Positions 21,772-51,259 of a DNA stretch of 64,000 nucleotides are shown here, piece by piece (position 1 is the stretch's first letter; the number at the start of each line of letters is the position of its first letter). The DNA lies in assembly GCF_000328685.1 (NCBI RefSeq), contig NC_019974.1, forward strand, positions 124,001 through 188,000, given 5' to 3'. The notes below the pieces were generated by a model, which worked only from the letters and a program-made list of their open reading frames with translations, had not been told where the DNA came from and did no database searches. This stretch comes from Natronococcus occultus SP4 (lineage in GTDB: Archaea > Halobacteriota > Halobacteria > Halobacteriales > Natrialbaceae). A program made the position numbers and the translations under genes.

Positions 21772-22632
21772 ATGACTACCGTGGTCAAGATCGGCGGCGC
21801 ACGCGCCGTCGATCCCGAAGGTGCGCTCGCGGACGTCGCGAGCCTCGTCGAGGACGGCGAGGACGTCGTCCTCACCCACGGCGGCTCGACGGCCGTCGAC
21901 GAGACCCTCGAGGAGCTCGGGCAGGAGCCCACGTACGTCGAGACACCGGGCGGCGTCGTCGGTCGCTTTACCGATGAGGAGACGATGGACGTCTTCAAGA
22001 TGGTGATGCCCGGCAAGCTCAACACCGACCTCGTCGAGAGCCTCCAGAACGAGGGTGTCGACGCCGTCGGCCTCTCGGGGACGGACGGCAAACTTCTCGA
22101 GGGGAAACGCAAGTCCGCCGTTCGCGTGAAAGAGGACGGCAAGAAGAAGATCAAGCGCGGCGACCACTCGGGGAAAATCGAGTCGGTCAACGCCGACCTC
22201 CTCGAGACGGTGCTCGCGGGCGGCTACACGCCCGTCGTCTCGGTTCCGATGCTGGGTGAGGAGAAATCGGGCGGGTACACCGCCGTCAACGCCGACGCCG
22301 ATCGCGCGGCCGCCGCGATCGCGGGCGCGCTCGAAGCCGACCTGGTCGTGTTGACCGACGTCTCGGGGATCTACGAGGACCCGGACGACGAGTCGACGAA
22401 GATCGACTCCGCGTCGACCCCCGAGGAGTTCGAAGCCGTCGAGGACGCCGCCGAAGGGTTCATGACCAAGAAGGTCATGGCCGCCACGGAGGCCCTCGAA
22501 GGGGGTGCGTCCTCGGTGATCGTCGCCTCGGCTAACGCGGACGCGCCGATAACGAGTGCGCTCGCGGGCGAGGGGACGACCCTCCAGCCCGGCGTCCTCG
22601 ACGACGAAACTACACAGGAGGCCACACGATGA
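21772..22632 (+). CDS. argB: [LysW]-glutamate/aminoadipate kinase
   Basis: A 286-residue amino-acid kinase of the N-acetylglutamate kinase family that phosphorylates the side-chain carboxylate of the carrier-bound amino acid. The glycine-rich VVKIGGARAVDP, LTHGGSTAVDE and LTDVSGIYED segments are typical. A Lys-rich stretch (KEDGKKKIKRGDHSG) near 121-136 stands out in this acidic proteome and may contact the acidic carrier or substrate. It starts directly after the argC stop and overlaps argD by four bases. Confidence 0.94.
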   Translation: MTTVVKIGGARAVDPEGALADVASLVEDGEDVVLTHGGSTAVDETLEELGQEPTYVETPGGVVGRFTDEETMDVFKMVMPGKLNTDLVESLQNEGVDAVGLSGTDGKLLEGKRKSAVRVKEDGKKKIKRGDHSGKIESVNADLLETVLAGGYTPVVSVPMLGEEKSGGYTAVNADADRAAAAIAGALEADLVVLTDVSGIYEDPDDESTKIDSASTPEEFEAVEDAAEGFMTKKVMAATEALEGGASSVIVASANADAPITSALAGEGTTLQPGVLDDETTQEATR

Positions 22633-41132: not shown

Positions 41133-42290
41133 ATGAATTCGAAACGTCGAGAGACAGACGGCCGAACGGGAGAGACGAACGACGGAAGGGGGGTGAGCAG
41201 ACGGCGGTTACTCCAGACTTCCAGCGTACTCGGCGCGAGCGCACTCGCCGGCTGCGCCGAGAGCGAAATCCTCGGCGGTGCGCTCGCAGGATTCGACGAT
41301 CAGTCGTTCATCGTCGGCTATCAACCGTTTTACACCGAATCCTGGTCGGCGCTCGTGATTCGACACGCCGACCTCGCCGAGAAACACCTTCCCGAGGAGT
41401 ATTCGGTCGCGAGCTGGGAAGTCGCCCTGCAGGGTGCCGTGATCGGGAACAAGATGATCTCGGAACAGAACGATATCGGCTACACGGGCGACATGCCGAC
41501 GATCACGGCGATCGCGAACGAGGAGACGCCGATCGACATGGTCGGAATCGCCGGCTTCTCCGAAGGACAGCAGTGTAACCTCGGCTTCGTCGCCAAGGAC
41601 AGCGGAATCGAGGACGCACAGGACCTCGACGGCCGCGAGGTCGGGGTTACGACCGGAACCTGTACCCACCGGTTCCTCCTCGAGGCGGTCCAGGAAGAGG
41701 GGATCGACATCGAGATCTCCGACATGGGGATGGAGACGATCGCAACGAACATCCGGGAAGGAAACCTCGATGCCGGGGCCGGCTTCGAACCTACGGTGTC
41801 GCGCTCGGTCGTACAGGCCGACGCGGCGGAGTTTCTCTTCTCGGGTGCCGACTACGGTATGCACGACGCCGCCGGTATCCTGATGCTCGACTCGCTGGTC
41901 GCGGAGCACCCGGAGGCCGCGGTCGGCTGGATGAAAGCCGAACTCGAGGCGAAACACATCATGGCGAACGATCCCGAGCGGACGCTGGATCTCGTCCAGG
42001 AGGAAGGCCAGCTGCGAGATTACGAGCGCGAGACGCTGCGCGCGACGCTGTACGAGACGCCGGACGCCAGCCCGGACGTCGAACGGATGCTGTTTTACAC
42101 CGACTTCGAGGCGGTCGACGAGGCCGAGGAGCTGATGAAGCGGGAGGCCCCGGAGTTTCTCTACGAGGACCAGGAGGTCATCTCGCACGTGCCGCCGGAG
42201 GAACGGTACCGGACCGACCCCCTCCGGACCGCCGTCGACGAACTCGAGGACGACGCCGACTGGGATCCGCTTCGGGGGGCCGAACGATGA
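41133..42290 (+). CDS. NitT/TauT-type ABC substrate-binding lipoprotein
   Basis: A 385-residue extracellular binding protein. The Tat signal (SRRRLLQTSSVLGASALAG) ends in a lipobox at a cysteine near residue 41. The mature part is an NMT1/THI5/SsuA-like fold (VGYQPFYTESWSALVIRHAD, GREVGVTTGTCTHRFLLEAV). Ligands of the family include nitrate, sulfonates, taurine and thiamine precursors; the true ligand cannot be read here. It is the first gene of a four-gene importer and overlaps the first permease gene by ATGA. Confidence 0.9.
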   Translation: MNSKRRETDGRTGETNDGRGVSRRRLLQTSSVLGASALAGCAESEILGGALAGFDDQSFIVGYQPFYTESWSALVIRHADLAEKHLPEEYSVASWEVALQGAVIGNKMISEQNDIGYTGDMPTITAIANEETPIDMVGIAGFSEGQQCNLGFVAKDSGIEDAQDLDGREVGVTTGTCTHRFLLEAVQEEGIDIEISDMGMETIATNIREGNLDAGAGFEPTVSRSVVQADAAEFLFSGADYGMHDAAGILMLDSLVAEHPEAAVGWMKAELEAKHIMANDPERTLDLVQEEGQLRDYERETLRATLYETPDASPDVERMLFYTDFEAVDEAEELMKREAPEFLYEDQEVISHVPPEERYRTDPLRTAVDELEDDADWDPLRGAER

Positions 42291-43117
42291 GTACGACCAC
42301 GATCGAACGGATTCAGCGGCGGTTCGAGGGAGGCACCGTTCCGATACTCACCAAGCGCGTTCGGCAGCTGCTGTCGATCGTCCTGTTTCTCGGCCTCTGG
42401 TCGGCGCTGGTCCGCTTCGGCGTGCTCGGATTCGACACGTTCGTCGGCCCGGAGACGACGCTCGCGGCACTGCTCGAGGCACTTTCGGGCACGGCGATGA
42501 CCGAAGGCGGAGAGACGATCTACGAACACGCGGCGTTCTCGGCGTTTCGCGTCCTCGTCGCGGTTACCATCGCGGTGCTCGTTGCTATCCCGCTCGGACT
42601 GACGATCGGGACGAGCCGCCGCTGGGAGGACGCGCTGTTCCCGGCGCTCGAGGTGTTCCGACCCGTTCCGCCGGTCGCCTGGGTCCCGATCGCGCTGCTC
42701 CTGTTGCCGACGTTCCGCAGCGGCGTGATCTTCGTGGTGTTCGTCGGCGCGTTCTTCCCGATCCTCGTCAACACCATCGAGGGCGTCAAGACCGTCGAGG
42801 CGGAGTACGTCCAGGCGGCAGCGAGCCTGGGTGCCGGGTCACGCGACATCTTCCGACACGTTATCGTCCCCGCGACGCTGCCGTCGATCATCACTGGGGT
42901 CTCGCTGGGCGTCGGGCTGGCGTGGATTACGGTCGTCGCTGCCGAGATGATCGCCGGCGGCGTCGGCATCGGCTACATCATCTTCCAGGCCTACCGGCTG
43001 CTCCAGACCGAGGTCATCGCGGTCGGCATGATCGCGATCGGCTTCCTGGGGTACATCTCGGCTGCGGCGGTCCACCGGACCGGCCACTACCTCACCCGCT
43101 GGCAGGAGACCAACTGA
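42287..43117 (+). CDS. ABC permease, NitT/TauT type (first)
   Basis: A 276-residue inner-membrane permease with about six helices. The EAA loop for ATPase contact is EAEYVQAAASLGAGSRDIFRHVIVP (the key part is EAEYVQAAASLGA). Its gene overlaps that of the binding protein and is followed after 18 bases by the ATPase gene. A second permease gene follows the ATPase, so the channel may be a heterodimer. Confidence 0.92.
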   Translation: MSTTTIERIQRRFEGGTVPILTKRVRQLLSIVLFLGLWSALVRFGVLGFDTFVGPETTLAALLEALSGTAMTEGGETIYEHAAFSAFRVLVAVTIAVLVAIPLGLTIGTSRRWEDALFPALEVFRPVPPVAWVPIALLLLPTFRSGVIFVVFVGAFFPILVNTIEGVKTVEAEYVQAAASLGAGSRDIFRHVIVPATLPSIITGVSLGVGLAWITVVAAEMIAGGVGIGYIIFQAYRLLQTEVIAVGMIAIGFLGYISAAAVHRTGHYLTRWQETN

Positions 43118-43135
43118 CGACCGTTTCACCCAACT

Positions 43136-43984
43136 ATGAGCAAACACGACGCACCCACCGACGATTCCCCGACCGCCGAACCGACTCCCGATACGACGGG
43201 CAAGACCGGCGCGATTTCGCTCGATAACCTGAACAAGACGTACGATCCCGAGGGCGAACACGTCGTCGCCGTCGAAGACATGGACCTCGACGTGGCGGCC
43301 GAGGAGTTCGTCGCGTTACTCGGCCCGTCCGGCTGCGGAAAGAGTACCGTCCTCGAGTGTATCGCCGGCTACCTCGAGCCCACCGAAGGCGAGGTCGTCG
43401 TCGACGGCACGCCAGTCACGAACCCGGATCCGAAACGCGGCGTGGTCTTCCAGGAGAACCGGCTGTTTCCCTGGAAGACGATCAAGGAGAACGTCGAGTT
43501 CGGCCCGCGGATGCACGAGGGCGTCGAAGAGGGACGCGCGGAGTCGATACTCGACGAGATGGGTCTCGACGGCTTCGAGGACGCCTACCCCTCGGAGCTC
43601 TCCGGCGGGATGCAACAGCGAGCCGAACTCGCCCGCCTGCTGGCGAACGATCCCGCGATCATGCTGATGGACGAGCCGTTCAGTGCGCTCGACGCGCTGA
43701 CGAAAGAGATCATGCAGAAAAAGCTCCTCGAGGTGTGGGAACGCGACAACCGCACGGTGTTGTTCATCACCCACGACGTCGAGGAAGCGATCCTGCTGGC
43801 TGACCGCGTTGCGATAATGACCGCCCGTCCGGGGCAGATCAAAGACGTTATCGACGTCGATATCGACCGGCCGCGCGATCCCGAGGTCGTCACCACTGAC
43901 CGGTTCACCGAACTGCGCGAACGGGCGCTCTCGGTCATCCGCGAGGAGGCCGAGCGCGCGCTCGAACAGGAGGACGGTGCCTGA
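43136..43984 (+). CDS. ABC ATPase, NitT/TauT type
   Basis: A 282-residue nucleotide-binding subunit. Walker A is GPSGCGKST, the signature is LSGGMQQRAELAR, Walker B is IMLMDEPFSALD and the H-loop is FITHDVEEA. The first 25 residues are an acidic/polar extension (SKHDAPTDDSPTAEPTPD). It overlaps the second permease gene by one base. Confidence 0.95.
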   Translation: MSKHDAPTDDSPTAEPTPDTTGKTGAISLDNLNKTYDPEGEHVVAVEDMDLDVAAEEFVALLGPSGCGKSTVLECIAGYLEPTEGEVVVDGTPVTNPDPKRGVVFQENRLFPWKTIKENVEFGPRMHEGVEEGRAESILDEMGLDGFEDAYPSELSGGMQQRAELARLLANDPAIMLMDEPFSALDALTKEIMQKKLLEVWERDNRTVLFITHDVEEAILLADRVAIMTARPGQIKDVIDVDIDRPRDPEVVTTDRFTELRERALSVIREEAERALEQEDGA

Positions 43985-44739
43985 TGGAGTCGCGGCGCCG
44001 ACTCGTCCGGCTGGGGTCGATCCTCGCGGTGCCGGTGCTCTGGTTCGTCGCCAGCCGGTTCGGGCTGATCGCCGGACTGCCGACCCCCGTCGAGGTAGCC
44101 GACGCGTACGTGGCCGAGCTGTACCGGGACGACTTCTGGATCTCGACGATACGGAGCACGATCCGCGTGCTCGCCTCGTTCGTCGTCGCGGCGGCGGTCG
44201 CGGTCCCGCTGGGGCTGCTGATCGGACGGTACACGATCTTCGCCGATCTCACGTTCCCCGCACTCGAGATGCTGCGACCGATTCCGCCGATCGCGTGGAT
44301 CCCCTTTACAATCCTCGTGTTGCCGGCGGCCGAACTCTCGATCATGTTCATCACGTTCCTCGGGGCGTTCTTCCCGATCCTGTTAAACACGATCCAGGGG
44401 GCACGCGGCGTCGAGGTTGAGTATCCACGCGCCGCCCAGTCGCTCGGGGCGAACTCCTACCAGACGTTCCGTCACGTCATTTTTCCCGGCGCGTTGCCCG
44501 CGATTCACGCCGGCATGATCGTCGGGATGGGGCTCGCGTGGGTCAACCTCATCGCCGCCGAGATGGTCGCCGGCGGCACCGGGCTCGGATTCCTGACCTG
44601 GTCGGCCTACACGAGTGGCTCGTACCCCACGATCATCGTCGGGGTCATCACGATCGGCCTCCTCGGAGCGATTTCCTCTGCGCTGGTTCGGCTCCTCGGC
44701 GACTGGCAGATCGGGTGGACCGAGCCACGGCCGAACTGA
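43984..44739 (+). CDS. ABC permease, NitT/TauT type (second)
   Basis: A 251-residue permease with about six helices, related to the first permease. The ATPase-contact loop is VEVEYPRAAQSLGANSYQTF. It is the last gene of the importer unit. Two dissimilar permeases with one ATPase and one binding protein is the full set for import. Confidence 0.92.
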   Translation: MESRRRLVRLGSILAVPVLWFVASRFGLIAGLPTPVEVADAYVAELYRDDFWISTIRSTIRVLASFVVAAAVAVPLGLLIGRYTIFADLTFPALEMLRPIPPIAWIPFTILVLPAAELSIMFITFLGAFFPILLNTIQGARGVEVEYPRAAQSLGANSYQTFRHVIFPGALPAIHAGMIVGMGLAWVNLIAAEMVAGGTGLGFLTWSAYTSGSYPTIIVGVITIGLLGAISSALVRLLGDWQIGWTEPRPN

Positions 44740-44834
44740 GCCGTCGACGCTTTCGACCGGCGAGGTCGACGGCGCTGTCGCTCAAAAGTACGTAAAATAC
44801 TGCAGTCAAGAGCCGATACCGTTACGAATCCGCC

Positions 44835-45029
44835 TTACAGGCGCTCGACGTTCGTTGCGCGCGGGCCCTTGGGGGCCTGCTCGATCTCGAACTCGAGTTC
44901 CTGACCTTCTTCGAGGTCCGGGCCGCCGATGTCTTCCATGTGGAAGAAGACGTCCTCGTCCGCGTCCTCAGTCTCGATGAATCCGTAGCCGCCAGTGTCG
45001 TTGAAGAAATCAACGGTTCCTTTCGCCAT
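44835..45029 (-). CDS. cspA: Cold-shock domain protein (second copy)
   Basis: A 64-residue cold-shock domain with [10 protein letters not shown] and DVFFHMED intact. Ten substitutions, mostly conservative, separate it from the copy at 35607-35801, and they lie at surface or linker positions. It is divergent from the Lrp-type gene. Confidence 0.95.
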
Positions 45030-45217
45030 TGCTTCTGAACAGAAGAGTGCGGGACGTATAAACCCTGCGACTCGTAGCCCATCGTGCGTTCCGCTCGCAC
45101 GCTCATCGGACGACAGCAACGCGGCTACCGGACGCTTTGCCGCTTCGTCATTTCCATCAGTGTCTCGGGAGTTCTGATGGCCGAAGTCCCTTATATTTCC
45201 CGCGGAAAACGCTACGT

Positions 45218-45682
45218 ATGACCGAGTACGATCTCGACGCGACCGACCGGGAGATCTTGTATGCGCTTCAAAAAGAAGCCCGAAACCTCTCCTCAAGCGA
45301 GATGGCCGAGCGTACCGACGCTTCCTCAAGTACGGTCCGAAAGCGAATTCAGCGCCTGGAAGCGGAGGGGATAATCAAGGGATACAGCGCCGACATCGAC
45401 TACACGAAGTCCGGCTACCCGATCCGGATGCTGTTGTTTTGTACGGCTCCGATCCCCGATCGGGGGGACTACATCGAAGAGATACTCGCCATTCCGGCGG
45501 TCATCTCGGTCCAGGAACTCGTCACTGGCGAGGAGAACCTCCTCGTCACGGCCGTCGGGGAGACCGATCGGGACATCACGCCGGTCGCACAGGAACTGGC
45601 GGACATCGGCTTAACGATCACGGACGAGGTACTCGTCCGCAGTCACGAATCGACCTCGTTCGACGAGCTTTCCGGGGAGTGA
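45218..45682 (+). CDS. Lrp/AsnC-type transcriptional regulator
   Basis: A 154-residue regulator. The N-terminal winged helix (about 1-60: [40 protein letters not shown]) is followed by an Asp/ligand-binding alpha-beta domain (about 65-140). CTTATATTTCC near 45190-45200 is the TATA box, about 24 bases before the ATG. Ligand and targets are unknown; the DAB genes lie downstream and are a candidate target, but this is inference from position only. Confidence 0.9.
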
Positions 45683-45979
45683 CGTTCTTTGTGCCGTGAA
45701 CAGCGGTCTTTCCTCACTCTCCGAAGCGGTATCGGCGCGTTCGTTTTGCATCCGACCGTGTTAGCGTACGGACGGTTGTGGCGAATCGTTCGATTCGGAC
45801 CGCCTATCCGGACAGGTCGTTCGTGATCGGATGAATTATACAGGGTCAACTCGTATCGGTAGCCAGATGCGGGTGGCTCGTGCGGACGGTGCCGCCGATC
45901 CCGTTCGACCTTTCTCGGCGAGCGGCCCCAGAAGCGAGACTCCCCAGATGACCGGACCGATCTGTGGGTCCCGTTGACA

Positions 45980-45994
45980 CGAACAATTTGTTCG
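45980..45994. promoter_or_regulatory. Palindrome CGAACAATTTGTTCG upstream of dabB
   Basis: Perfect 7-bp arms around one base. Its centre is 21 bp, two helical turns, from the centre of the next palindrome. A candidate operator or activator site for the DAB operon. Confidence 0.55.
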
Positions 45995-45999
45995 AACCA

Positions 46000-46016
46000 G
46001 TGGTTATAATAACCAC
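46000..46016. promoter_or_regulatory. Palindrome GTGGTTATAATAACCAC over the dab TATA box
   Basis: Perfect 8-bp arms around one base; the core TTATAATAA is a plausible TATA element. A protein bound here would compete with TBP. It predicts transcription from about 46035 and an 85-base leader, consistent with the ribosome binding site at 46102-46106. Confidence 0.55.
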
Positions 46017-46101
46017 CATGTTCAAAATAACTCTGAATACGACCGGCCCGGTAAGTATTGCCTGTGATCGTGGTGCGGTGTTCGGGATGTCCGAGCTGGT
46101 C

Positions 46102-46106
46102 GGAGG
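46102..46106 (+). promoter_or_regulatory. Ribosome binding site GGAGG of dabB
   Basis: GGAGG lies 12 bases before the dabB ATG. Leadered genes are the minority here, so this supports a promoter well upstream, at the palindromes. Confidence 0.45.
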
Positions 46107-46118
46107 ATACATCGAAGA

Positions 46119-47621
46119 ATGTCTAAGGACACGCGACCATCCGATGCTGGAACACTCGCCGAAACGACGACCCAACGGACCCCCACGATTCCGCGAGCGT
46201 CGACCTGGGCGGTCTGGACGCTCTTTCTGTGTAGCGTTGGCGTTCTCGTATTGACCGCCCTGCGTGGGTACGAATGGGGGCACCCCGACCTCGTCGTCAT
46301 CGACGGGTTGACCGCGGTCATGTGGGTCGTGGTCACCTTCTTCAGTGGGATCGTCCACAGCTACTCGCGCCGGTACATGACCGGCGACAGCGGCGTTGAC
46401 CGATTTTTCGGCCAGATACTGGCCTTCACGGTCGTGGTCATGACGCTGACCGCGGCGGATCACGTCGCGCTGTTCGCGACGATGTGGCTAGCGATGGGTC
46501 TGTTGATGGCATCACTGATCGGTCACGACCGCGACTGGAAACAGGCCCGCGCTGCTGGCGTGCTTGCCGTCAAGTACTTTCTCGCCAGCAGCGCGCTGCT
46601 TTCGACCGGGCTCGTCGCTCTCGTCTGGGCGACGGGCGCTACCTCCGTTTCGGGCATTGTCGCCGACATCGACGGGATTTCGACGACCGTTGTGATCGTC
46701 GCCGTCGCCGCTATCTTCCTCGCAGCGATCGTCCAGTCGGCACTGTTCCCGTTTCACGGCTGGCTGCTATCGTCGATGACCGCGCCAACGCCGGCCTCCG
46801 CGCTGATGCACGCCGGTTTCGTCAACGCGGGCGGCATCCTGCTGACCAGGTTCGCTCCGCTGGTCGGCGAGTACCTGTACGTCATGTCAGTCGTCGTCCT
46901 CGTCGGTGCGTTCAGTGCCCTTCTGGGACAGGCCATGCTGCTCGTCCAGACCGACGTGAAACGCGAACTTGGCAGTTCGACGATCGCGCAGATGGGCTTT
47001 ATGATTATGCAGTGTGGCCTCGGTTTCTTCGGGGCTGCGATCGCCCACCTCATCTTGCACGGCTGCTACAAGGCCTATCTCTTCCTCTCGTCCGGAGCTC
47101 CCGTCGAGCACACGGTTCCAACGGACAAGGACCGCACCCATCTAGGCTTTTCCGGCGTCGCGGTCAGCCTCCTCACGGCCGTCGGCGGCGGCGTGATCTT
47201 CATGCTGCTCACCGGAAAGCTGTCGGGACTGAGCGTGACTCTCAACAGCGGTATCGTGTTGACCCTCGTCGTGGTGCTGACGACGCTCACCGCCGCACGG
47301 GATATTCTCCACCGGACGACGCTCCCGTCGTCGATCAGGCTCGTTAGCGTCCCGCTGGTCGTGCTGACCGCAATCAGCGCATACGCGGTGACATTCAACG
47401 CCGTTTCGACGATGCTCGCAGCGGACGTCCCGATGACCTACGCGCCAACCGAACTAACCGTCGTTCACTACCTCGTCGTCGCCGGCTTCGTCGGCGCCTA
47501 TCTCGCGACGGAGCTTGGCTGGCACCGCTCCAGCGAGCGGCTCTACGTTGCCTTACTGAACGTCTCGCAACCGGCCCCCTCTACCGTGCTCACCAGCAAG
47601 GAGGACTACGATGACGCCTAA
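46119..47621 (+). CDS. dabB: DabB, membrane subunit of DAB bicarbonate transporter
   Basis: A 500-residue membrane protein of the NuoL/MrpA proton-channel family with about 13 helices. Key segments are HSYSRRYM, FPFHGWLLSSMTAPTPASALMH (the conserved core is PFHGWL and PTPASALMH) and a Lys in the trans-membrane GVLAVKYFLA. In DAB complexes DabB is thought to pass cations that drive CO2 hydration by DabA. It overlaps dabA by 11 bases, and no other Nuo or Mrp genes are nearby, which supports DabB over complex I. Confidence 0.9.
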   Translation: MSKDTRPSDAGTLAETTTQRTPTIPRASTWAVWTLFLCSVGVLVLTALRGYEWGHPDLVVIDGLTAVMWVVVTFFSGIVHSYSRRYMTGDSGVDRFFGQILAFTVVVMTLTAADHVALFATMWLAMGLLMASLIGHDRDWKQARAAGVLAVKYFLASSALLSTGLVALVWATGATSVSGIVADIDGISTTVVIVAVAAIFLAAIVQSALFPFHGWLLSSMTAPTPASALMHAGFVNAGGILLTRFAPLVGEYLYVMSVVVLVGAFSALLGQAMLLVQTDVKRELGSSTIAQMGFMIMQCGLGFFGAAIAHLILHGCYKAYLFLSSGAPVEHTVPTDKDRTHLGFSGVAVSLLTAVGGGVIFMLLTGKLSGLSVTLNSGIVLTLVVVLTTLTAARDILHRTTLPSSIRLVSVPLVVLTAISAYAVTFNAVSTMLAADVPMTYAPTELTVVHYLVVAGFVGAYLATELGWHRSSERLYVALLNVSQPAPSTVLTSKEDYDDA

Positions 47622-50040
47622 GGAAACTCAAACCCAGACTCGAACCGCGACCCAGGACCGCATCGTCAAAAGTATCGACCGTGTCGCCGACCGAATCGGC
47701 TCGGTCTGGCCGCTCCACTCCTTCGTCACCGCGAACCCGCTCTCGGGGTTCGAAGACCGGCCGTTTCACGAAGCCGTCGCCGAAGGCGAGCGGCTGTTCG
47801 GCGGCCGCGGCTACCCGCGTCCCGAAATCTTTCGTCGGGCCTGGGAGGACGGTCGGATCGATCCCGAAATACTGCGCGCAGAACTCGCCGCCCACGAACT
47901 CGACGACGATCCCGAGACGCACCTCGAGACGTTGGCCGAGCGCGAAACAGAGCGGGGCAACGAGACCGACGACGCAACGGAAACCGTCGACCGCGTGCTC
48001 GCAAAGTGGCTCGCCGCGTTTCTCGACCAGGACCACGCGAACTGGTCGATGCCCAACCGCGAGGAGGGATTCTACGCCGCTTGGCGCGAACTCGCTCCCC
48101 ATGACGGCGACGTGCCCGGCTGCGACGATCCCGATGACCTCCCCGAGACGGCGATGGCGGTGCTGGAGGACGCACTCGGCGAACTCCCCGACCCGCGCTG
48201 GGATGACGTTCTCGAGTTCCACCTCGCCGCGCTGCCCGGCTGGACGGGGTTCATCAAGCAACGCACCGAGGACGATTCGGATCCGTGGCAGTCGGAGTAC
48301 CCGATCACGCTGTCCGAATACCTGGCCGTGCGGCTGGCGCTTTGTGACCTGCTGGATGCCCCGATCGAGCCCGCCGATGCGAGCGGCGACGATCCCGCTG
48401 CAACCGCCGACGAGGACGCCCCCCTCGAGGAGATCTGGCTGTCGGCCTGGGAGCAGAGCTATCGTCGTCGTCTCCTCGAAGACGTCGACGACTCCGTCAC
48501 CGAGTCGTCCCACGGCGACGACGAGCGCCCGGACGCACAGCTCGTCTTCTGTATCGACACGCGCTCGGAGATCATCCGCCGCCACATCGAAGCACAGGGC
48601 AGTTACGAGACTCACGGCTACGCAGGGTTTTTCGGCATCCCGATGCAGTACAAGGAACACGATTCGGAGGTCGTCGCCGACGCCTGCCCGCCGATCGTCG
48701 AGCCACAACACCTGATCGCCGACGAACCCGAGACCGACCGCGGTGAAAAGACGACGACCCACGACCAGTGGCACGGGCTGGTGAGCGCGACTCGGAAACA
48801 CTTCAAGCGTCTCAAGACCAACGCCGTCGCCGCCTTCCCGTTCGTCGAAGGAGGCGGCGGCGCCTACGGGTCGGTGATGGTGGCACGGACGCTCGCCCCG
48901 TCGGCCCTCTACAAACTCGATACCGCCGTCGACGAGCGCGTCCCGAGCACCCACGAGTTCTGTTCTCCCACGCTCGAGTACCCGCGGATGAGCGACGACG
49001 AGAAAGTCGAGTACGCACAGACTGCCTTCGAACTCATGGGCTGGACGGAGTTTTCTCGCCTGGTCGTCTTCGCAGGTCACGCGAGTCACACGACGAACAA
49101 CCCGTTCGACTCGAGCCTCGACTGTGGGGCCTGTGCCGGCAACCCCGGCGGCCCGAACGCGCGTATACTCGCAAAGATCTGCAACGACGAAAGCGTCAAA
49201 GCCGAGCTCCGCCAGCGCGACTTCTCGATCCCGGAGGACACGGTGTTCGTCGGGGCCGAACACAACACGACGACCGACGAGATCACCCTCTTCGACGGCG
49301 ACGTTCCCGAGAGCCACCACGAGGACATAGAGGAGTTGCGCGACGACCTCGAGCAAGCACGTCGCGCTGCAGCCGCCGAGCGCAGCGAATCGCTGACGAA
49401 CGCCGACCCCAGCGATCCCATCCGCGAGACGGCACGCCGCGCGGTCGACTGGGGCGAAACCCGACCCGAGTGGGGTCTGGCCGGCAACGCCTCGTTCGTC
49501 ATTGGCCCTCGCGGACTGACCGACGACGAGGACCTCGATGGCCGCGCGTTCCTTCACTCCTACGACTGGTCGACCGACCCCGACGGTGACGCACTCGAGT
49601 TGATCATGGCGGGACCGCTCGTCGTGACACAATGGATCAACAACCAATACTACTTTGCGACCGTCGACAACGACGTCTACGGCAGCGGCTCGAAGGTCAC
49701 GCAAAACCCGGTTGGTAACGTCGGCGTCGTCCAGGGCAACGGCGGCGATCTGATGACCGGCCTCCCGCTACAGTCGCTGAAGGCCGCCGACGACGAGCCC
49801 TACCACCAGCCGCTCCGCCTGACCGCGGTGATCCACGCGCCAGTCGAGCGCGTCACCGAGATTCTCCGCGAACACGAGAACGTCGAACGGCTGGTGGCAA
49901 ACGGCTGGATCGCCAACCTGACCGTCATCGATCCTACCCAGGACAACCGGGTCTTCCACTATCAGGGGGGCCTCGAGTGGGAACGCCCGGCGCCAGAACC
50001 GACCCCACAGCAGGCCAGCGCACCCGCAAGTTCGGACTGA
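47611..50040 (+). CDS. dabA: DabA, CO2-hydrating subunit (DUF2309)
   Basis: An 809-residue DUF2309 protein, the soluble partner of DabB, thought to act as a vectorial carbonic anhydrase that makes bicarbonate from CO2. The zinc-site residues of the family are present: Cys314 and Asp316 in VFCIDTRSE, His490 in FAGHASHT and Cys505 in LDCGACAG. The N-terminus PLHSFVTANPLSGF is characteristic. Acidic insertions near 255-275 and 590-610 fit a halophile. The gene is coupled to dabB, and a beta-carbonic anhydrase gene faces it downstream. Confidence 0.94.
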   Translation: MTPKETQTQTRTATQDRIVKSIDRVADRIGSVWPLHSFVTANPLSGFEDRPFHEAVAEGERLFGGRGYPRPEIFRRAWEDGRIDPEILRAELAAHELDDDPETHLETLAERETERGNETDDATETVDRVLAKWLAAFLDQDHANWSMPNREEGFYAAWRELAPHDGDVPGCDDPDDLPETAMAVLEDALGELPDPRWDDVLEFHLAALPGWTGFIKQRTEDDSDPWQSEYPITLSEYLAVRLALCDLLDAPIEPADASGDDPAATADEDAPLEEIWLSAWEQSYRRRLLEDVDDSVTESSHGDDERPDAQLVFCIDTRSEIIRRHIEAQGSYETHGYAGFFGIPMQYKEHDSEVVADACPPIVEPQHLIADEPETDRGEKTTTHDQWHGLVSATRKHFKRLKTNAVAAFPFVEGGGGAYGSVMVARTLAPSALYKLDTAVDERVPSTHEFCSPTLEYPRMSDDEKVEYAQTAFELMGWTEFSRLVVFAGHASHTTNNPFDSSLDCGACAGNPGGPNARILAKICNDESVKAELRQRDFSIPEDTVFVGAEHNTTTDEITLFDGDVPESHHEDIEELRDDLEQARRAAAAERSESLTNADPSDPIRETARRAVDWGETRPEWGLAGNASFVIGPRGLTDDEDLDGRAFLHSYDWSTDPDGDALELIMAGPLVVTQWINNQYYFATVDNDVYGSGSKVTQNPVGNVGVVQGNGGDLMTGLPLQSLKAADDEPYHQPLRLTAVIHAPVERVTEILREHENVERLVANGWIANLTVIDPTQDNRVFHYQGGLEWERPAPEPTPQQASAPASSD

Positions 50041-50399: not shown

Positions 50400-51101
50400 T
50401 CAGTACAGCAAACTCTGGGTCGACGTCGCGAACTCGTCGGGGATCAACTCGGTGATCCGTCCGGAGTCGGTCTCGCCGTTGACGTTGACCAGATACGCCC
50501 GTCCGTACGCGTTGCCGTAGACGCCTTGGAAGTCGTAGACGAAGCCGTAGACGCCGACGTCATCGGGAACGTCGTCGGACTCCCGGAGAAACCCTGCCTG
50601 GTAGTCGACGTTGTACTCGACGAGCTGGTTGATCACCGTCGACTCGTTCATCTCGCGGTCGATCAGGTCGCTCTCGAGACCCTCCTCGATGACCGGTACC
50701 AGCATCTCGACCCACTTATCGACGCCTTTCGGTCCGGGAAAGTCGCCGCCGGTCGCGACCTGGTACGCGGCGGTGATGGCCCCACAGCCGGTGTGGCCAA
50801 CGACGACGGCGACATCGGTGTCCGTGTGGTGAATCGGGTAAAGCACTCCGCCGTCGACGATCCGATCGCCGTCGTCGTCATCCCAGACCTGGTTACCGAT
50901 GTTGCTCGGCGTAAAGATCACTCCCGGATGGTCGAACCCCCACATGTGCTCCTGTGGCACCCGTGAGTCGGAACAGCAGATCGCGACAGTATCGGGATGC
51001 TGGTCCGTCTGGACCTCGGCGAAGTAATTCTCCGGGAGCGACTCGACGTGGCGCTGGTTGCCGGCGAGCAGCTCCTCAAGGAACTTCCGAGTCGATCCCA
51101 T
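50400..51101 (-). CDS. Beta-type carbonic anhydrase
   Basis: A 233-residue enzyme interconverting CO2 and bicarbonate. The Zn site C43/D45/R47 (CCSDSRVP) and H103/C106 (GHTGCGA) is complete. A GTG four codons upstream is possible, but a TTTTTG TATA-like element near 51125-51130 fits the ATG at 51101. No signal peptide, so it acts in the cytoplasm. Its position, facing the DAB operon across one small gene, suggests a shared role in inorganic-carbon supply. Confidence 0.93.
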   Translation of the reverse strand: MGSTRKFLEELLAGNQRHVESLPENYFAEVQTDQHPDTVAICCSDSRVPQEHMWGFDHPGVIFTPSNIGNQVWDDDDGDRIVDGGVLYPIHHTDTDVAVVVGHTGCGAITAAYQVATGGDFPGPKGVDKWVEMLVPVIEEGLESDLIDREMNESTVINQLVEYNVDYQAGFLRESDDVPDDVGVYGFVYDFQGVYGNAYGRAYLVNVNGETDSGRITELIPDEFATSTQSLLY

Positions 51102-51259
51102 AGCACAACTCACACGGACAGGGTCAAAAAGGTTTGATGCGGTCTCGAGGTCTGTGAGCGTCGGTCCGCGACCGTTCGGCCGACGCCGAAGCCAGTCTTG
51201 CGGACGAGCGGGCTGCCGGGAAGCGGACCTTCACTTTTCGGCGTGTACATGGGGTCGGT

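Follow-up and report, generated by a model that had tools for sequence, protein, structure and literature searches.

What does the promoter of the dab operon, at which two perfect palindromes lie side by side, contain in the way of control elements? The question arises from a window of 64 kb (the whole stretch of DNA that was analysed), in which the dab genes, the palindromes and a gene for a regulator are arranged as follows.

45218-45682, + strand: Lrp/AsnC-type gene encoding 154 aa, the proposed dab regulator (HTH/AsnC-type Pfam and PDB profile matches)
45980-45994, + strand: palindrome 1, CGAACAATTTGTTCG, with arms of 7 bp and 1 nt between them
46000-46016, + strand: palindrome 2, GTGGTTATAATAACCAC, with arms of 8 bp and 1 nt between them
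46119-47621, + strand: dabB, Proton_antipo_M family
47611-50040, + strand: dabA, PF10070 (Pfam name DabA), E 1.2e-269

An earlier note had described both palindromes with these arms and with their centres (45987 and 46008) 21 bp apart, all of which we confirmed, and it had proposed two regulators or an activator-repressor pair. The genes dabA and dabB lie side by side, and dabBA would be an inorganic-carbon uptake operon if the family name is taken as a guide to function. The dabAB genes of Haloferax volcanii, a gene pair identical in kind to that in the window, have been predicted to encode a CO2 transporter (PMC8305020); as far as the text of that paper on dabAB goes, the function is predicted only and neither a regulator nor an operator is given. 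Beyond dabA, a beta-type carbonic anhydrase gene (50400-51113, − strand) is found, which recurs near dab in most loci of the family. Upstream of dab there is an ABC transporter cluster (41133-44739) with an SsuA-like binding protein, two permease-like genes and a nitrate/taurine-type ATPase, and the binding protein and the ATPase also recur in the closest relative.

Fate of the two palindromes in related dab promoters

The 37-mer spanning both palindromes occurs once in the 4.31-Mb genome. The window contains 33 perfect palindromes (arms ≥7 bp, spacer ≤1 nt) versus 22.6 ± 4.5 in first-order Markov simulations, and 2 pairs of palindromes no more than 30 bp apart (the second near 21860-21900) versus a simulated mean of 0.22. 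At least one such close pair arose in 18% of the simulated windows; an 80-nt segment with the base composition of this AT-rich locality would contain a close pair by chance with a probability of about 1e-4. The pair by itself hints at function and is not decisive, and it is the comparative data that decide. Palindrome 1 was also considered as a site with many targets, a reading that was set aside. Elsewhere in the genome, CGAACNNTTTGTTCG is found exactly once (G000:C1:2698850-2698864) and with one mismatch in 13 places; the one-mismatch scan gave 15 rows, a count that includes the window site on both strands, with forward/reverse numbers of 7/8, an excess over the 1/0 of the reversed pattern.

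DabA is present in 50 of the 125 genomes of the window's family; for the order (Halobacteriales), 392 genomes were sampled and 218 have it. The comparison drew on 49 dab regions of the family and 60 of other families (59 genomes), spread over genera. These make 110 loci including the window, one of which (L167, truncated and without upstream DNA) was dropped, leaving 109 promoters; at one locus (L115) the start codon was moved upstream by eye. The set includes a genome of the same genus (G005) whose DabA is 96% identical to that of the window.

Palindrome 2 is perfect in only 1 of the 109 promoters, that of the window, and at least 7 of its 8 pairs are kept in 7 promoters. Its arms agree on average at 4.98 positions in the family set, where 4.84 are expected from independent columns. 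Palindrome 2 as an operator is rejected on this poor conservation together with arms that match like independent columns, and the proposal of two regulators for two different palindromes is not supported. The conserved portion is its right part, TATAATAACC, in which the TATA box is joined to the left half of a downstream box (box 3, below). It is evident that palindrome 2 covers the TATA box, as had been supposed (TATAATA at 46005-46011 lies inside 46000-46016); judged by this comparison, palindrome 2 is a chance symmetry that arose around TATAATAACC with the conserved TATA box.

Full symmetry of palindrome 1 is seen in 5 of the 109 promoters; within the family of the window, 33 of 50 promoters keep at least 6 of its 7 pairs, but in other families only 3 of 59 do so. 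The expectation that the palindromes are kept in related dab promoters therefore holds for palindrome 1 within the family and fails for palindrome 2. The right half of palindrome 1 is GTTCG in 46 of the 109 promoters; outside the window's clade, this half reads GGTAA, GTGAA, GGGAA or GGTCG, and its variety makes the symmetry weak there. By the same comparison, palindrome 1 is a real element with a lineage-dependent symmetry.

Three boxes around the TATA box and a linked Lrp-type gene

Upstream of dab, pairs of GAAC and GTTC give 108 matches at exactly 39 bp and 1-8 matches at each of the other spacings between 34 and 44 bp. The promoters were aligned on the GAAC half of palindrome 1, which is found in 109 of 109 aligned promoters by construction, as it is the alignment anchor. 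GTTC stands at +39 from the anchor in 100 of the 109, also by construction where the anchor was chosen on the pair, and the remaining nine, for which anchors were set by hand, depart by one or two bases or by one inserted nucleotide. The score for GAAC-N5-GTTC across offsets peaks at −31/−30, 0 and +30 (+29 with N6) in both promoter sets, and these peaks correspond to three boxes.

45950-45962, + strand: box 1, GACCGGACCGATC, offset −31, degenerate in the window (match to 6 of the 8 consensus letters)
45980-45994, + strand: box 2, the same as palindrome 1, with the core GAACAATTTGTTC at 45981-45993, 8 of 8
46005-46011, + strand: TATA box TATAATA, a conserved column block between boxes 2 and 3
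46010-46023, + strand: box 3, TAACCACCATGTTC, 7 of 8, whose left half shares 2 bp with the TATA box and which ends in GTTC at 46020-46023

A score of at least 6/8 is reached by box 1 in 73, by box 2 in 99 and by box 3 in 85 of the 109 promoters, and by 5 of 327 background positions. Box 1 scores below 6/8 in 36 of the 109, and box 3 is found in 64 when the stricter threshold of at least 7/8 is applied. As boxes 2 and 3 are partly anchored, the unanchored box 1 provides the cleanest test, and the overlap of the left half of box 3 with the TATA box gives a second possible cause for the conservation of box 3. In the window, the distances between neighbouring box centres are 31 and 29.5 bp, or roughly three helical turns; across promoters, the spacing is 29-31 bp. 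The 21 bp between the two palindromes is thus not a meaningful spacing; what is conserved is a distance of 30-31 bp from box to box and of 39 bp between GAAC and the GTTC downstream of it. TATAATA, which falls between boxes 2 and 3, has the sequence of an archaeal TATA box and presumably acts as one. Column information drops to near zero beyond box 1, yet the boxes, the TATA box and the spacing are kept across eight families, with DabB identity down to 49%. The conserved layout across related dab promoters bears out the view that the site is a regulatory promoter element.

To see how widely the layout is distributed, one may turn to a composite pattern (GAAC, TG, the TATA core and GTTC at fixed distances), with the reversed pattern as control. 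It has 150 matches in 149 of 384 genomes, whereas the reversed pattern has 0. All 150 matches are tied to dab: 70 lie 1508-1677 bp ahead of dabA and in its orientation, another 79 come from genomes that contributed an aligned dab upstream region, and the last stands before a dabB truncated at the end of a contig (G365). Moreover, a genome with two dab operons (G402) has two matches. Because the pattern misses dab promoters that are one base off, 149 is a lower bound. In the window it occurs once, even with two mismatches allowed. Two genomes bear a second, more distant DabA copy of 53% identity (G360:C2:154536-156893 and G411:C1:1397875-1400232), and in both of them the pattern matches only at the other DabA copy. 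Among the 80 matches listed from the named genome collection, 55 are haloarchaeal and each adjoin dab and/or an Lrp gene, and the remaining 25 adjoin neither; Haloferax species carry the same operator among the matches listed.

The product of the Lrp/AsnC-type gene has an N-terminal AsnC-type HTH (HTH_24, E 8.2e-15; HTH_AsnC-type, E 6.5e-10; both above the curated cut-off), and a profile search matched Lrp/AsnC PDB chains over residues 4-116. No Pfam AsnC C-terminal domain was found in it at E 0.001. The order of elements in the predicted structure, E69-76 H79-90 E95-100 E108-114 H121-129 E133-140 (pLDDT 72, moderate confidence), is the beta-alpha-beta-beta-alpha-beta order of a RAM domain, so a RAM-like C-terminal part is predicted, and the top Foldseek matches are Lrp/AsnC proteins (E 8.9e-9), in a superposition that is loose over the whole chain (TM about 0.5, rmsd 12-15). 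It scores 52.2 bits with NCBIfam LrpA1_Halo (cut-off 250) and 43.5 bits with Lrp_Halo (cut-off 190), and by these scores it belongs to neither named haloarchaeal equivalog.

An orthologue of the regulator (at least 67% identity) is present in exactly the same 50 of 125 family genomes as DabA, and the next-best Lrp matches show at most 53% identity. All 50 family loci, that of the window among them, have the Lrp gene upstream in the same orientation, as do 58 of the 60 loci from other families (108 of 110 in total), and the two loci without it (L156 and L167) are short or truncated stretches. The mean column identity of the regulator is 80% (48 sequences), with S38-T39, R41-I44 and R46-E48 invariant in the HTH region. 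It is also evident that the promoter type, A (TATAATA-like) or B (TTTAATA-like), follows Lrp identity with no overlap (in 56 cases the identity is 74.3% or higher, in 53 it is 73.2% or lower), which indicates that regulator and operator travel together. The suggestion that the neighbouring Lrp-type gene is a candidate regulator is supported by this shared distribution and position, and no better candidate is seen. If this protein binds the boxes, the peaks at −31/−30, 0 and +30/+29 are a case of Lrp sites clustered two or three turns apart. No autoregulation box was found ahead of the Lrp gene, where upstream regions score no better than random segments. A cold-shock-domain gene (44835-45029, − strand) is divergent from the Lrp gene and adjacent to it in most family loci; that its product serves as an RNA-binding partner is speculation.

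The predicted 5′ leader of dabB

The position of the TATA box would place the transcription start at about 46032-46035, and the leader of 85 nt with a GGAGG site (46102-46106) that had been described before is present.

46032-46118, + strand: predicted dabB 5′ leader, from its position relative to the TATA box
46040-46046, + strand: 5′ arm of the leader helix, CGACCGG
46096-46102, + strand: 3′ arm of the leader helix, CTGGTCG, touching GGAGG at 46102-46106

Most relatives have a short helix with CGACC / GGTCG-like arms and a variable apical part; it lies near the predicted 5′ end, with some 10-18 nt between it and the start codon. In a duplex comparison of 102 leaders (leaders shorter than 60 nt were dropped), the 5′ arm pairs with its own 3′ arm at a mean of −14.2 kcal/mol versus −12.4 kcal/mol with the 3′ arms of other species, and none of 20,000 permutations was as low, a preference to which relatedness among species can add. 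For the 19 non-consensus arms, the values are −15.1 (own) versus −11.1 (others'). In two leader alignments, A1 and A2 (87 of the 109 leaders were aligned; seven very short leaders, near-duplicates and a few divergent ones were left out), 77% and 93% of the helix cells are paired, versus 20-48% and 7-46% when the helix is slid. The cells changed on both sides number 21 and 7 versus shuffled means of 13.4 and 2.6, which is modestly favourable.

The leaders also tend to be stable (mean z = −1.39; leaders shorter than 45 nt dropped), with z below −2 in 36 of 108 versus 3 of 108 segments at the start of dabB coding and 9 of 108 upstream of box 1, the latter control being used as a count as its mean is undefined owing to one degenerate segment. 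The window's own leader is unremarkable in stability (z = −0.24), and its top-scoring helix in single-leader folds differs from the conserved one; in many cases the best helix of a single leader does not score clearly higher than that of shuffled leaders. RNAalifold gave no structure in either of two MAFFT leader alignments, so that the evidence for the hairpin comes from duplex comparisons, folds of single sequences and counts of pairs. An Rfam search of 44500-46700 gave three weak matches up to E 5, all below the gathering score and none in the leader. Taken together, a leader hairpin is kept in many relatives (leaders L062-L170), with moderate and partial support from covariation. In Haloferax volcanii, 72% of protein-coding transcripts are reported to be leaderless, and structured leaders are called untypical in the text of that report (PMC4983044). 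With leaderless transcripts the rule there, the dab leader is noteworthy, and we claim no function for it.

Proposed control of dabBA and its relation to known Lrp systems

It is probable that the region is the dabBA operator together with the core promoter, and that one Lrp-type protein, the candidate binder of all three boxes, acts there as a switch. The arrangement of the boxes, its conservation, its occurrence once for each dab operon and the shared distribution of the regulator gene are shown by the comparison, whereas binding by this protein, its dimeric state, the sign of its effect and its signal are inferred. Three Lrp dimers would sit on one face of the DNA, one at each GAAC-N5/6-GTTC box, with intervals of about 30 bp; box 2 lies immediately before BRE/TATA, and box 3 borders TATA on its downstream side. 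Boxes 1 and 2 would assist the recruitment of TBP/TFB, an occupied box 3 would hinder RNA polymerase, and a small-molecule effector may shift the balance between the boxes with the need for carbon. Archaeal Lrp proteins are described as binding aligned sites two or three turns apart; activators are said to position a dimer upstream of BRE at a distance of a few bp, and P. furiosus LrpA to repress from a site bordering TATA downstream (all in the relevant text of PMC2995911). Because the same box occupies both the activator and the repressor position, a single regulator with a double effect is favoured. The activator-repressor arrangement of the earlier note may hold in the form of one protein at two sites, but is not supported in the form of two different palindromes.

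The sign of regulation is the weakest step, and the main alternative is a pure repressor, in which the same three boxes and the same Lrp regulator would wrap the promoter or block the polymerase until a carbon-linked effector releases it. The boxes cover the whole core promoter, and box 3 borders TATA downstream as in the repression reported for P. furiosus LrpA (PMC2995911); however, box 2 lies at the position reported for archaeal Lrp activators in the same source. We regard a pure repressor as possible, with the chances somewhat against it. It is rather doubtful that dab is under a double control, conserved and serving this operon only, in which a dedicated Lrp protein that brackets the TBP/TFB site with boxes of one sequence at activator and repressor positions and a cis-regulatory leader RNA, with its basal helix by the start region, would jointly read inorganic-carbon status. 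That the boxes serve another DNA-binding protein, the linked Lrp gene regulating something else, is unlikely: Lrp paralogues are many (7-19 matches in most of the complete genomes listed), but only the linked orthologue shares the exact dab distribution and location, and the promoter type follows the clade of the linked Lrp protein. Two regulators, or an activator-repressor pair, at two palindromes on one face 21 bp apart would account for palindromes that are both perfect in the window and, as a close pair in AT-rich DNA, rare by chance; the imperfect state of palindrome 2 in all promoters but one, its independent arms and the conserved spacings of 39 and about 30 bp make this very unlikely. 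Chance symmetry with recent common descent and no regulation, to which the close pairs in simulated 64-kb windows and the apparent chance origin of palindrome 2 would lend themselves, is extremely improbable in view of a layout kept across eight families next to near-zero information beyond box 1, and of a reversed pattern without a match in 384 genomes.

The proposed switch by one Lrp-type protein at three boxes has a close counterpart in Ss-LrpB of Sulfolobus solfataricus, which is likewise an Lrp-family, local regulator with three neighbouring, regularly spaced dimer sites of about 15 bp, and which activates a neighbouring operon, with a switch between activation and repression reported at its own gene (as described in the text of PMC4046817 and PMC2995911). 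The dab promoter likewise has three regularly spaced palindromic boxes, box 1 being degenerate in the window. The consensus differs, however (TTGCAAAATTTGCAA for Ss-LrpB and CGAACnnnnnGTTCG, GAAC-N5/6-GTTC, for dab), and the dab boxes, unlike those of Ss-LrpB, lie at the target operon with TATA between boxes 2 and 3, none being seen at the regulator gene. Box 3 resembles the P. furiosus LrpA site that borders TATA downstream, and box 2 resembles the site of Ptr2 (Methanocaldococcus jannaschii) just upstream of BRE; one mode each is described for LrpA and Ptr2 in the text of PMC2995911, whereas the dab promoter has the same box at both positions.

Similarly, CsmR of Haloferax volcanii is a haloarchaeal Lrp/AsnC-type protein that binds beside BRE/TATA and co-occurs with its target genes, features in which we liken it to the dab regulator; it differs in its motif TATCA(N4)TGATA, its 65 ChIP peaks and its divergent C-terminal part (from the relevant text of PMC13286277). 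BarR of Sulfolobus acidocaldarius can be compared as an Lrp-type activator that is dedicated and acts mainly locally, with several sites at regular intervals close to its own gene; it is described as responding to beta-alanine, with 21 binding loci and other targets, whereas one target is predicted for the dab regulator (from the relevant text of PMC4977709). Our literature search found no paper on a haloarchaeal dab regulator or operator, nor on a dab leader hairpin. Lrp-type local regulators with multi-site operators are already known, and the specific regulator, the operator and their link to dab were not found in the literature searched.

The locus thus offers a testable set of regulator, operator and genes for an inorganic-carbon pump whose control is undescribed as far as the literature was searched. 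The exact bases to mutate are fixed, and the operator is also present in Haloferax, a tractable genus. With its TBP/TFB site flanked on either side by one and the same box, the dab promoter may serve as a model for how a bacterial-type regulator would help or block a eukaryote-like transcription machinery.
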